A DNA stretch of 7,421 nt from Candidatus Poribacteria bacterium (GTDB lineage: Bacteria; Poribacteria; DTPJ01; WJIO01), in the NCBI GenBank assembly GCA_014730235.1, contig WJIO01000376.1, forward strand, positions 1-7,421, read 5' to 3'. Under the pieces are notes generated by a model. It was given only the letters and a program-made list of their open reading frames with translations. It did no database searches and had not been told where the DNA came from. Numbering within the stretch: the first letter of the stretch is position 1; the number at the start of each line of letters is the position of its first letter. The translations under genes were made by a program, and so were the position numbers. Shown one piece after another: positions 2,953 to 5,682 of this stretch.

Positions 2953-3013
2953 TCTCTGGCGTTAAGTTTTAATATTGCGAAAAATTTTATCACATATTTA
3001 CAGGTATTTCCAT

Positions 3014-3565
3014 ATGATTATTAAAGAGTATCGAAAACGTTTACTTGACTTGCTAAAAGAAAAAGCTCTGGTAATCGGTAAAGTAAAACTTTCATCAGGT
3101 AAGGAGAGCGATTATTACCTGGATGAAAGAATTGTAACACTTATGCCTGAAGGCGCATATTTGACTGCAAAGATAATGATCCATATGCTTAAAGACATCA
3201 ATGTTGATGCTATAGGCGGTATGACCCTGGCGGCAGATCCCATTATCGGCGCAGTTACAGCCATGAGTTATGCTGATAATCAACCGTTATCAGGTTTGAT
3301 TGTGCGCAAAGAGCCAAAGGGCCATGGAATGGGTAAACAGGTGGAAGGTCCGGTTAAAAAAGGCTTGAAAGTTGCTGTTGTTGACGGAACTATGACTACC
3401 GGCGGCTCAGTCCTTAAAGCTGTAGAAGCTCTGGAAAGAGTAGGTTGCGAAATCGTTAAAGTAATTATTATGATAGACAGGTTGGAAGGCGGCAAGGAAA
3501 ATGTTGAGGCAGAAGGATACAGTATAGAATCAGTATTTACAAGGCATGATTTGTTTAATCAGTAA
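3014..3565 (+). CDS. pyrE: Orotate phosphoribosyltransferase-like protein
   Basis: A 183-residue type I phosphoribosyltransferase, close in pattern to OPRTases, which make orotidine 5'-phosphate from orotate and PRPP in UMP synthesis. Visible elements, numbered from the chosen start: KLSSGKESDYYLD (25-37), GGMTLAADPIIGAV (68-81), the mobile catalytic loop RKEPKGHG (98-105) with its Lys and His residues, and the PRPP motif VAVVDGTMTTGGS (120-132). The PRPP motif is odd: the usual acidic pair (ED or DD) reads DG, so the second acid is missing. The open frame extends upstream to a TTG at 2975, but that start has no ribosome site. ATG 3014 gives the usual family N-terminus (MIIKEYRKRLLDLLKEKAL) with a weak AGGT upstream. 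No other pyrimidine gene is in view. An OPRT paralogue with a different base substrate is possible. The stop codon is followed at once by repeat copy 3. Confidence 0.85.
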   Translation: MIIKEYRKRLLDLLKEKALVIGKVKLSSGKESDYYLDERIVTLMPEGAYLTAKIMIHMLKDINVDAIGGMTLAADPIIGAVTAMSYADNQPLSGLIVRKEPKGHGMGKQVEGPVKKGLKVAVVDGTMTTGGSVLKAVEALERVGCEIVKVIIMIDRLEGGKENVEAEGYSIESVFTRHDLFNQ

Positions 3566-3566
3566 A

Positions 3567-3690
3567 GTAATCGTTAAAAATGAAGATTTTTATAAAAAAC
3601 AAGCATAAATTTTTACCATTCCTGCTTTCGTAGGAATGACAGCATGAAGAAGTTTCTTATCTTTACCACACCAAACCCGGAAGAACCAAA
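3567..3690. repeat. Partial copy 3 of the palindromic repeat, between pyrE and the fusion gene
   Basis: Starts 1 bp after the pyrE stop with GTAATCGTTAAAAA (3567-3580), identical to 14 bases of the copy 1 terminus. A short spacer containing CAAGCATAAATTTT (resembling the outer arm of copy 2) leads to the core hairpin CATTCCTGC-TTTC-GTAGGAATG (3618-3639, one mismatch). The right part, about 3633-3686, matches copy 1 (551-605) at all but about four positions. The left inner arm and the right terminus are missing, so this is a decayed or rearranged copy. It lies inside the presumed pyrE operon, so its hairpin could modulate read-through. Confidence 0.7.
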
Positions 3691-3713: not shown

Positions 3714-4880
3714 ATGGAGTTAAAAGAAAAACAATACAAAGTCAAAATATGCGGCACGGCAAGCATTCGGGATGCCCTTATGGCTGATAAAGAGGGGGCG
3801 GATTACCTGGGTGTTCTGGTGGATGTTCCCTATTCCCGGCGAACCAACACTATTAAACAGGCGGCGGAAATTGTCCAAGTCGTAAATATACCTGTAGTAA
3901 CACTCCTTTCGGATAAAAGTGAGGAGGAGATACAGGATATTGTCAACAAACTGCACCCTTTTGCCGTACATATATTAAGAGGTGGTTTACCTCAGATGAT
4001 AAGCAACCTGAAAAATAAGCTGACTTGCCAGGTATGGCCTACTGTGTATCTCCCGGCCAAAGGCCAGGGTAAAGCCGATATAAATACAGTAAAGCGATCT
4101 ATGCGGGAATTTGAAAAGGTTGGTGCAGACTTAATAGTAATAGATACTGTGGTAATAGCAAAAGACGGAAGCAAAGGAAGTTTCGGCGGAACAGGAAAAA
4201 CCGCTGACTGGGATGCAGGTAAAGAGCTGGTTAAGGCCGTTAATATTCCGGTTTTTCTGGCCGGTGGCATAAATCCTGATAATGTAAAAGACGCCGTCAG
4301 AAAGGTCGATCCCTACGGCGTAGATCTAGCCTCCGGGGTTGAAAAAACAAAATGCAATCGGGACCCGGAAAAAGTCAAAAGACTGATGCAGGAAGTGCGA
4401 AAAGCCAGCAAGCTGAGCGCTGATCTGGTAACCCATAAACCTGAATCCACAAGACAATTAGCCGCAGAGATAGGAAGGCTTATCTTTCCCGGAAGCTTAA
4501 TCGCTTTATGTGGCAATCTTGGTTCAGGAAAAACGGTTTTCGCCCAAGGACTTGCCCAGGGATTGGATGTAGATGCAATTGTAACAAGCCCCACCTTTGT
4601 AATTATTAACGAATACGAAGGCAGGATTCCATTTTATCACATAGATACATATCGTCTGGATTCCTCGGATGAGATGATGGAACTGGGATATGAAGAATAT
4701 TTTTACGGTGGCGGCCTAACAGCCATAGAATGGGCCCAGAAGATCGAGGATTTACTGCCGGAGGAATACCTGAAAGTGGAACTTAAAGTTGTAGGGGAAT
4801 CAGACAGGGAGATAAGCCTTATTCCCTATGGTAGTAAATACGTTGAACTGGTTAAATCCATAGAATATATTGAATCATGA
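3714..4880 (+). CDS. TrpF-like phosphoribosylanthranilate isomerase fused to TsaE, t6A biosynthesis ATPase
   Basis: One uninterrupted 388-codon frame carries two complete domains. Residues 9 to about 230 are a TrpF-type (beta/alpha)8 barrel: KICG with the catalytic-base Cys (C13), an S-x-R loop (41-43), the general-acid Asp in IVIDT (D144), GGTGKTADW (158-166), LAGGINPDN (182-190) and YGVDLASGVE (201-210), which bind phosphate and shape the active site. The usual 'QLHG' segment is altered to VHILRGG. Residues about 243-388 are a full-length TsaE (YjeE) ATPase: Walker A GNLGSGKT (267-274), TSPTF (291-295), HIDTYRL (309-315) and IEWAQKIEDLLPEEYL (338-353). TsaE works with TsaB and TsaD to form t6A on tRNAs decoding ANN codons. 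GGACGGA lies 6 bp before the ATG. No ribosome site or convincing internal start precedes the TsaE half. The 3' end overlaps tsaB by 4 bp. TrpF and TsaE are normally separate proteins, so a sequencing or assembly join should be excluded. Confidence 0.9.
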   Translation: MELKEKQYKVKICGTASIRDALMADKEGADYLGVLVDVPYSRRTNTIKQAAEIVQVVNIPVVTLLSDKSEEEIQDIVNKLHPFAVHILRGGLPQMISNLKNKLTCQVWPTVYLPAKGQGKADINTVKRSMREFEKVGADLIVIDTVVIAKDGSKGSFGGTGKTADWDAGKELVKAVNIPVFLAGGINPDNVKDAVRKVDPYGVDLASGVEKTKCNRDPEKVKRLMQEVRKASKLSADLVTHKPESTRQLAAEIGRLIFPGSLIALCGNLGSGKTVFAQGLAQGLDVDAIVTSPTFVIINEYEGRIPFYHIDTYRLDSSDEMMELGYEEYFYGGGLTAIEWAQKIEDLLPEEYLKVELKVVGESDREISLIPYGSKYVELVKSIEYIES

Positions 4881-5563
4881 TAATACTAGGTATTGAAACA
4901 GCAACAATGACCGGTGGTGTTGCCCTGATTGATGATAAACGACTCATATCAGAATACACCCTGAACGTAAAGACAACCCACACAGCCCGGTTAATGCCGG
5001 CTCTGGATCTGATTTTAAGGGATTCAAAGATAGACAAAAAACAACTGGAGGGTATAGCCGTATCCATAGGTCCCGGCTCTTTTACCGGACTACGTATAGG
5101 ACTTGCTACGGCAAAAGGCCTCGCTATTGGTCTGGACGTACCCATGGCAGGAATACCGACTCTGGAAGCTCTTGCCAGCAATATACCTTTTCCTGAATAC
5201 CAGGTTTGTCCTGTATTGGACGCAAAGAAAAAAGAGGTTTATGCTACCATTTATCAGCATGTAGATGATAAGCTTGTAAAAAAGATACCTTATCAGGTCA
5301 TGCCTCCTTCAACCCTTGTTAATCATATAAAAGAAAAAACCATATTCCTGGGTGATGCCCTGGATGCATACAGGGATTTTTTTACCCGGGAACTGGGAAA
5401 ATTAGCCCTTTTTGCTCCTGATGCTCAACGGCTGCCCCGGGCAGCCGTTATCGCCGAACTGGGTTTGGCCAGGCTAAAATCCGGTGATTATATGGATATT
5501 GTCACCAGTGAACCTATTTACATAAGACCTTCAGATGCAGAACTTTCTATAAGAAAAGAATAA
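4877..5563 (+). CDS. tsaB: tRNA t6A biosynthesis protein TsaB (Kae1/TsaD paralogue)
   Basis: A 228-residue protein of the ASKHA fold and normal TsaB length. Signature parts are the N-terminal IETAT (6-10), the H-T-x-R-L-M-P segment (35-41), SIGPGSFTGLRIGLATAKGL (63-82), DAKKKEVYAT (115-124) and the C-terminal EPIYIRPSDAE (212-222). TsaB dimerises with TsaD and, with TsaE and ATP turnover, transfers the threonylcarbamoyl group to A37 of tRNA; it is a scaffold without its own catalytic metal site. The start overlaps the stop of the preceding gene (ATGA at 4877-4880) and has no ribosome site of its own, which points to translational coupling with the TsaE-containing fusion. In many bacteria rimI follows tsaB; here the next gene is an unrelated secreted protein behind a repeat. 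Confidence 0.93.
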   Translation: MIILGIETATMTGGVALIDDKRLISEYTLNVKTTHTARLMPALDLILRDSKIDKKQLEGIAVSIGPGSFTGLRIGLATAKGLAIGLDVPMAGIPTLEALASNIPFPEYQVCPVLDAKKKEVYATIYQHVDDKLVKKIPYQVMPPSTLVNHIKEKTIFLGDALDAYRDFFTRELGKLALFAPDAQRLPRAAVIAELGLARLKSGDYMDIVTSEPIYIRPSDAELSIRKE

Positions 5564-5682
5564 TGGCTCTTAAGATAAAATGTGGAAATAATTTGAGGAT
5601 TTTCTAAACATGTCATCCCTGCTTTTGCAGGGATGACATGTTTTAGAAGTTTTATCATTACAAAACTCAACCCGGTAGAATC
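5564..5682. repeat. Copy 4 of the palindromic repeat, downstream of tsaB
   Basis: Begins directly after the tsaB stop with TGGCTCTTA (remnant of the left inner arm) and ends with AACTCAACCCGGTAGAATC (5664-5682), related to the right inner arm of copies 1 and 3. The core stem is long: CTAAACATGTCATCCCTGC (5604-5622), loop TTTT, and a complement at 5627-5646 with a single bulged base. Compared with the other copies, the stem has C in place of T on the left and G in place of A on the right, so pairing is kept. The hairpin could end transcription of the tsaB operon, although only a short T-run (GTTTT) lies within its right arm. It fills most of the 157-bp gap before the next gene. Confidence 0.7.

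Follow-up and report, generated by a model that had tools for sequence, protein, structure and literature searches.

A single gene in a Candidatus Poribacteria genome encodes, in one continuous frame, a TrpF-like (beta/alpha)8 barrel followed by a complete TsaE ATPase domain, and the same fusion is present in the only other genome of its class that we examined. We propose that the gene specifies a bifunctional protein in which the barrel acts as a phosphoribosylanthranilate (PRA) isomerase and the C-terminal half as the sole TsaE of the cell, with the two domains working independently; judged by sequence comparison, we consider this reading probable, though well short of certain. The window, meaning the whole stretch of DNA analysed, is a complete contig of 7421 bases (C321) from a MAG of 5.5 Mb in 451 contigs (G000). 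The second genome with the fusion, G001, belongs to the same order and to a different family. The features of the window and of the loci compared with it are collected in Table 1.

Table 1. Coordinates of the fused gene, its parts and neighbours in the window, and of related loci in other genomes
Feature	Position	Strand	Basis or remark
pyrE	2975..3565	+	TIGR00336, 141 bits; 148 bases upstream of fusion
Fused gene, 388 aa, TrpF-like barrel + TsaE	3714..4880	+	Stop-free frame, two Pfam domains
TrpF-like (beta/alpha)8 barrel, residues 1-232	3714..4409	+	Pfam PRAI residues 10-226, AlphaFold, Foldseek
Cys13 codon (T. maritima Cys7)	3750..3752	+	Invariant across all groups compared
Arg43 codon (T. 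maritima Arg36)	3840..3842	+	Alignment
Leu88 codon (T. maritima His83 position)	3975..3977	+	Leu in both fusions
Asp144 codon (T. maritima catalytic Asp126)	4143..4145	+	Alignment
In-frame ATG (codon 225) and GTG (codon 228) at join	4386..4397	+	Without Shine-Dalgarno
Joint, residues 231-243	4404..4442	+	0/13 residues match G001
TsaE ATPase domain	4434..4811	+	PF02367, 133 bits
TsaE Walker A GNLGSGKT	4512..4535	+	Aligned with 5np9
tsaB	4877..5563	+	TIGR03725, 180.5 bits vs cut-off 69.3
G001 fusion	L033 18794-19927		58% protein identity to window fusion, both halves
Type a + beta-RFAP synthase/GHMP loci	L111 4995-8486; L117 4790-8574; L119 4907-6663
Further type a + beta-RFAP synthase/GHMP loci	L110, L116, L118, L128, L131, L132, L136, L140

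The preliminary description had read this frame as a TrpF-like isomerase joined to a full TsaE, and the profile searches bear it out. The predicted protein, of about 43 kDa, exceeds the Pfam cut-offs for both families (PRAI, PF00697, over residues 10-226 and model positions 1-192 of 193, E 1.7e-25, 90.3 bits against 22.7; TsaE over residues 241-366, E 4.1e-38, 130.7 bits against 26.6), and the alternative frames across the gene hold 38 and 27 stops. Because of these E-values and the recurrence of the fusion in a second genome, chance is ruled out. An assembly or base-calling error that merged two overlapping genes might be suspected in so short a contig of a fragmented MAG; we consider it exceedingly improbable, and reject a frameshift or misassembly as the explanation, since the independent G001 carries the same fusion with no stop at its join. 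Separate genes in close relatives had been named as the finding that would speak against the fusion: the class-mate proves to be fused, and the remaining Poribacteria have two genes. The regions flanking the joint are 59-67% identical between G000 and G001, and in each half the first two codon positions are conserved (0.68/0.77 and 0.70/0.85) while the third is not (0.39 and 0.36), a pattern indicating that purifying selection is acting on both halves of the fusion. Two domains under selection, linked by a joint free to vary, should leave just this trace of conserved halves around an unconserved joint, whereas an assembly error should not.

An internal start at codon 225 or 228 could yield an additional, free TsaE beside the fusion. 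The join does contain an in-frame ATG (position 4386) and GTG (position 4395), contrary to the earlier statement that it lacks any internal start, and in G001 an in-frame ATG lies where the TsaE domain begins. The companion statement that there is no ribosome site stands: neither of the window's candidates has a Shine-Dalgarno sequence at the proper spacing, and the G001 candidate lacks one as well. Moreover, codon 225 encodes a near-invariant Met in the last barrel helix of stand-alone relatives, and we regard a second, shorter product as improbable.

The TsaE half has every sequence hallmark that we looked for. It passes the TIGR00150 TsaE equivalog cut-off (112.4 bits against 60.1), matches B. 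subtilis TsaE (5np9) with an E-value of 4e-34, and in alignment with that protein shows the switch I, Walker B and EW motifs (TSPTF, HIDTYR, IEW). Thus, like the TsaE/YjeE/YdiB proteins (PF02367, TIGR00150; 5np9, 6nak), it comprises the whole domain, all the nucleotide motifs and a tsaB neighbour, and differs in that a barrel replaces the free N-terminus. As first described, tsaB is coupled to the fusion by an ATGA overlap, its start at 4877 overlapping the fusion stop by 4 bp. A PF02367 search of the source genome returned the fusion alone, and this sole TsaE, joined to tsaB, is likely to be functional, in agreement with the preliminary description. Published work places TsaE at the TsaD-TsaB interface with its ATP facing TsaD, where hydrolysis returns the complex to a state ready for another tRNA (PMC9654439, PMC11648230). 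The AlphaFold model of this half is of low confidence, being informed by two sequences, and is too weak for judging the domain interface.

Upstream of the fusion the two genomes differ: pyrE is absent from that position in G001, where the upstream gene is unrelated, and pyrE is probably not part of the fusion-tsaB system. The stretch separating pyrE from the fusion holds a palindrome-like sequence, CATTCCTGCTTTCGTAGGAATGA, at 3612-3645, and near the left end of the window an imperfect inverted repeat of 63 nt occupies 472-598. Beyond tsaB, 43 bases past its end, a perfect inverted repeat of 17 nt around a 4-nt loop (5606-5643) could serve as a terminator or represent a repeated palindrome.

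The barrel half resembles TrpF in fold and in most, not all, of its active site. The catalytic site of TrpF includes roles for Cys7, Arg36 and His83 in the numbering of T. maritima TrpF; the reference sequence used for this protein agrees with the PDB alignments over the corresponding stretches. Equivalents of Cys7, Arg36 and Asp178 are kept in the fusion, as is that of Asp126, whose catalytic role has been described (PMC9088769), together with GGTGKT and YGVDLASGVE motifs. The claim that all the main active-site signatures are present is therefore accurate for Cys13, Asp144 and the two motifs and fails at His83, a position that is His in 19/19 canonical proteins (9/9 Poribacterial TrpF and 10/10 other TrpF) and Leu in the fusions. 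In the AlphaFold model the barrel has eight strands, in blocks mostly above 85 pLDDT, and its last helix spans residues 218-232; the top Foldseek matches of the model in the PDB are the TrpF structures 1dl3, 1lbm, 4aaj and 1nsj, and the matches include B. subtilis TsaE 5np9. The complete (beta/alpha)8 barrel is thus shared with TrpF (PF00697; T. maritima 1nsj/1lbm, P. furiosus 4aaj), as are the four residues, the GGTGKT and SGVE loops and the best fold matches, whereas the fusion barrel is about 20 residues longer, lacks His83, falls outside the canonical clade and is fused to TsaE. It reaches none of the NCBI TrpF equivalog cut-offs, the best score being 119.8 bits against 215. These missed cut-offs, and the change of His83 to Leu in both fusions, count against our preferred reading of the barrel as a PRA isomerase.

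Searches of 84 Poribacteria genomes place the barrel in a wider family. Two main kinds of PRAI homologue occur in the phylum. Type b, found in 32 genomes (135-173 bits where complete), groups with canonical TrpF and in several families shares a gene cluster with trpC or trpA; type a, found in about 80 genomes (64-118 bits where complete), forms a clade apart from canonical TrpF (support 96/86) that also includes proteins of Desulfobacterota, Caldilineaceae, Nitrospirota and Nitrospinota. The window and G001 barrels are sisters within the type a clade (support 100/91), and the named close relatives found by alignment-based contig search are mostly Candidatus Poribacteria. All type a members compared retain the equivalents of Cys7, Arg36, Asp126 and Asp178, and in nearly all of them His83 is replaced. 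The closest relatives of the fusion barrel are stand-alone type a proteins of Poribacteria, Desulfobacterota, Caldilineaceae and Nitrospirota (about 36-50% identity), which differ in being unfused and in sitting, in some cases, beside beta-RFAP synthase and in others beside secA. Two Poribacteria have a third PRAI homologue (G003:C30, L077; G014:C568, L076), which in G003 is grouped with additional copies of trpC and trpD, the second of each.

Do type a proteins make tryptophan? The fused barrel is the only PRAI homologue in the source genome in a search to E<=1, and neither a second stand-alone trpF nor a second tsaE, both of which we looked for there, was found; G001 likewise gives a single PRAI and a single TsaE match, both genomes being incomplete MAGs (91.6% and 88% complete, respectively). 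Both encode TrpD, TrpC and TrpA. More broadly, 49/84 Poribacteria, these two included, carry type a but lack type b, and 47 of those 49 encode TrpD, TrpC and TrpA, among them the single-contig genomes G045, G079, G081, G082 and G083. In such genomes some enzyme must convert PRA to CdRP. Three further Poribacteria with trpC and trpD (G031, G039 and G054, of which G039 is 95% complete) yield no match to PRAI at E<=0.01.

A PriA-like HisA is a known substitute for an absent canonical TrpF. This bifunctional HisA/TrpF isomerase is diagnosed by Glu109 and Arg143 (PMC4732765), residues absent from the HisA of the source genome, which has Lys and His at those positions, while other type-a-only genomes that we read have Lys plus His, Asp or Glu. 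We accordingly rejected a PriA-like HisA as the real TrpF, the source genome and the other type-a-only genomes read being without the Glu109/Arg143 pair. G001 HisA has Lys at both positions, and Lys at 143 occurs in reconstructed bifunctional ancestors (PMC4732765); this HisA may, to judge by that residue, have a TrpF side activity. The best reading of type a is PRA isomerase, since it is the sole PRAI of genomes that have the trp genes and a HisA that is not PriA-like, and since clade members from other phyla that are the sole PRAI likewise lack His83. Another phosphoribosyl substrate is possible.

That last possibility underlies the main rival reading, in which the barrel is not a tryptophan enzyme but a paralogue that isomerizes some other phosphoribosyl or aryl-ribosyl phosphate and whose joining to TsaE was accidental; TrpF activity would then come from a side activity of HisA or from a missed gene. 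Besides the loss of His83, gene neighbourhoods lend it weight. In Desulfobacterota-type loci the operon that holds type a also encodes a GHMP protein, a Zn-alcohol dehydrogenase and an ADTH-synthase-like aldolase, and in L111 and three Caldilineaceae it adjoins beta-RFAP synthase (NF040726, cut-off 328; 356 bits in L111, 324 in L119). Most of the checked genomes with such beta-RFAP synthase- or GHMP-linked type a genes have a second PRAI, which in the Desulfobacterota-type genomes is canonical-like (131-168 bits), and a TrpF-like ring-opening of an aryl-riboside phosphate by the beta-RFAP-linked proteins is conceivable. Within Poribacteria, most of the 32 genomes with canonical TrpF carry type a as well. 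Were both to catalyse the same reaction, one of them would be superfluous, and the co-occurrence thus counts against our preferred reading too. In addition, the neighbour of type a is a cupin gene rather than a trp gene in 12/20 Poribacterial loci. This gene, of about 119 residues, lies directly upstream of stand-alone type a in 12 of about 20 loci (L042-L051, L053, L061; for example L044 5569-5925, minus strand).

Against this rival stand the 49 Poribacteria that have no other PRAI, several of them single-contig and 47 with the trp genes, and the source-genome HisA, which is not PriA-like. Other branches of the clade point the same way. Some Desulfobacterota and relatives have the PRAI gene just before secA and argJ (L124, L126, L127, L130), and two Nitrospirota loci have it after coaX and a lipoprotein-like gene (L129, L135); in the genomes checked these SecA- or CoaX-linked proteins are the sole PRAI, and they too lack His83. 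The fusions, moreover, carry DLASGVE, as in the sole-PRAI Nitrospirota, and not the DLCSGVE of the GHMP/beta-RFAP operon group. On balance we think it possible, and rather doubtful, that the barrel is such a paralogue.

We infer the activities of the two halves, the independence of the domains and the order of evolutionary steps that follow. In our preferred, bifunctional reading, a stand-alone type a gene would have landed in front of a tsaE-tsaB pair before the split of the class's two known families, and the frames would have become joined through a short joint. The tsaE-tsaB pair seems older than the fusion, because the two genes are adjacent in the unfused Poribacteria G002, G003 and G004. 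As the sole PRA isomerase of the genome, the barrel would serve tryptophan synthesis by converting N-(5'-phosphoribosyl)anthranilate (PRA) into CdRP through an Amadori rearrangement, in which Cys13 is the predicted base and Asp144 the predicted acid. The TsaE domain would bind the TsaB-TsaD interface, where ATP cycling would permit t6A turnover, and the covalent link would provide fixed co-production without cross-talk.

The preliminary description had also raised the idea that the fusion couples a signal of phosphoribosyl or amino-acid metabolism to t6A synthesis. A ligand in the barrel would then alter the ATP cycle of TsaE or its docking to TsaD-TsaB, or the reverse, and t6A synthesis would track tryptophan or PRPP supply. 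Two families have retained the fusion, with selection acting on each of its halves, and the very short joint after the last helix of the modelled barrel would permit contact between the domains. However, not one joint residue is conserved, and the pairing of tsaE with tsaB, which explains co-transcription, exists without the fusion. TsaE is present in 80/84 Poribacteria genomes and shares a frame with PRAI in G000 and G001 only; in none of the other genomes examined did we see tsaE next to a TrpF-like gene, and in many genomes of genus g21 and in family f7 the two share a contig at a distance of about 11-40 kb. Apart from the fusion as such, we therefore find nothing to favor coupling and consider it very improbable; the plain co-expression that had been offered as the alternative fits better. 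Equally slim, in our estimate, are the chances of its most specific form, in which a barrel sensing PRA/CdRP or PRPP supply would gate TsaE and link t6A to tryptophan synthesis within one protein; if true, metabolism would here directly control an essential modification of tRNA. As a separate observation on tsaE neighbourhoods, a purE-like gene, recognized by eye, lies upstream of tsaE in several Poribacterial families (L160, L163, L175, L179).

Fusions of TrpF to a second enzyme are known from the bifunctional TrpC-TrpF and TrpF-TrpB enzymes (1pii, PRK09427, PRK13803). There the partner belongs to the same pathway, whereas the partner here belongs to tRNA modification. The architecture had been called unusual, and we agree: in the open-access literature searched we found no paper with both 'phosphoribosylanthranilate isomerase' and TsaE, and a literature search for published TsaE fusions gave nothing useful. 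What appears new is the TrpF-TsaE architecture, confined to a single small class, together with the divergent clade of TrpF to which its barrel belongs. Since the fusion joins unrelated pathways, it offers a test case for regulation versus mere co-expression in such fusions. Beyond this class, a TrpF clade without His83 appears, from its distribution among genomes, to have replaced canonical TrpF or to coexist with it in Poribacteria and other phyla, and statements about tryptophan prototrophy in these phyla rest on a predicted enzyme.
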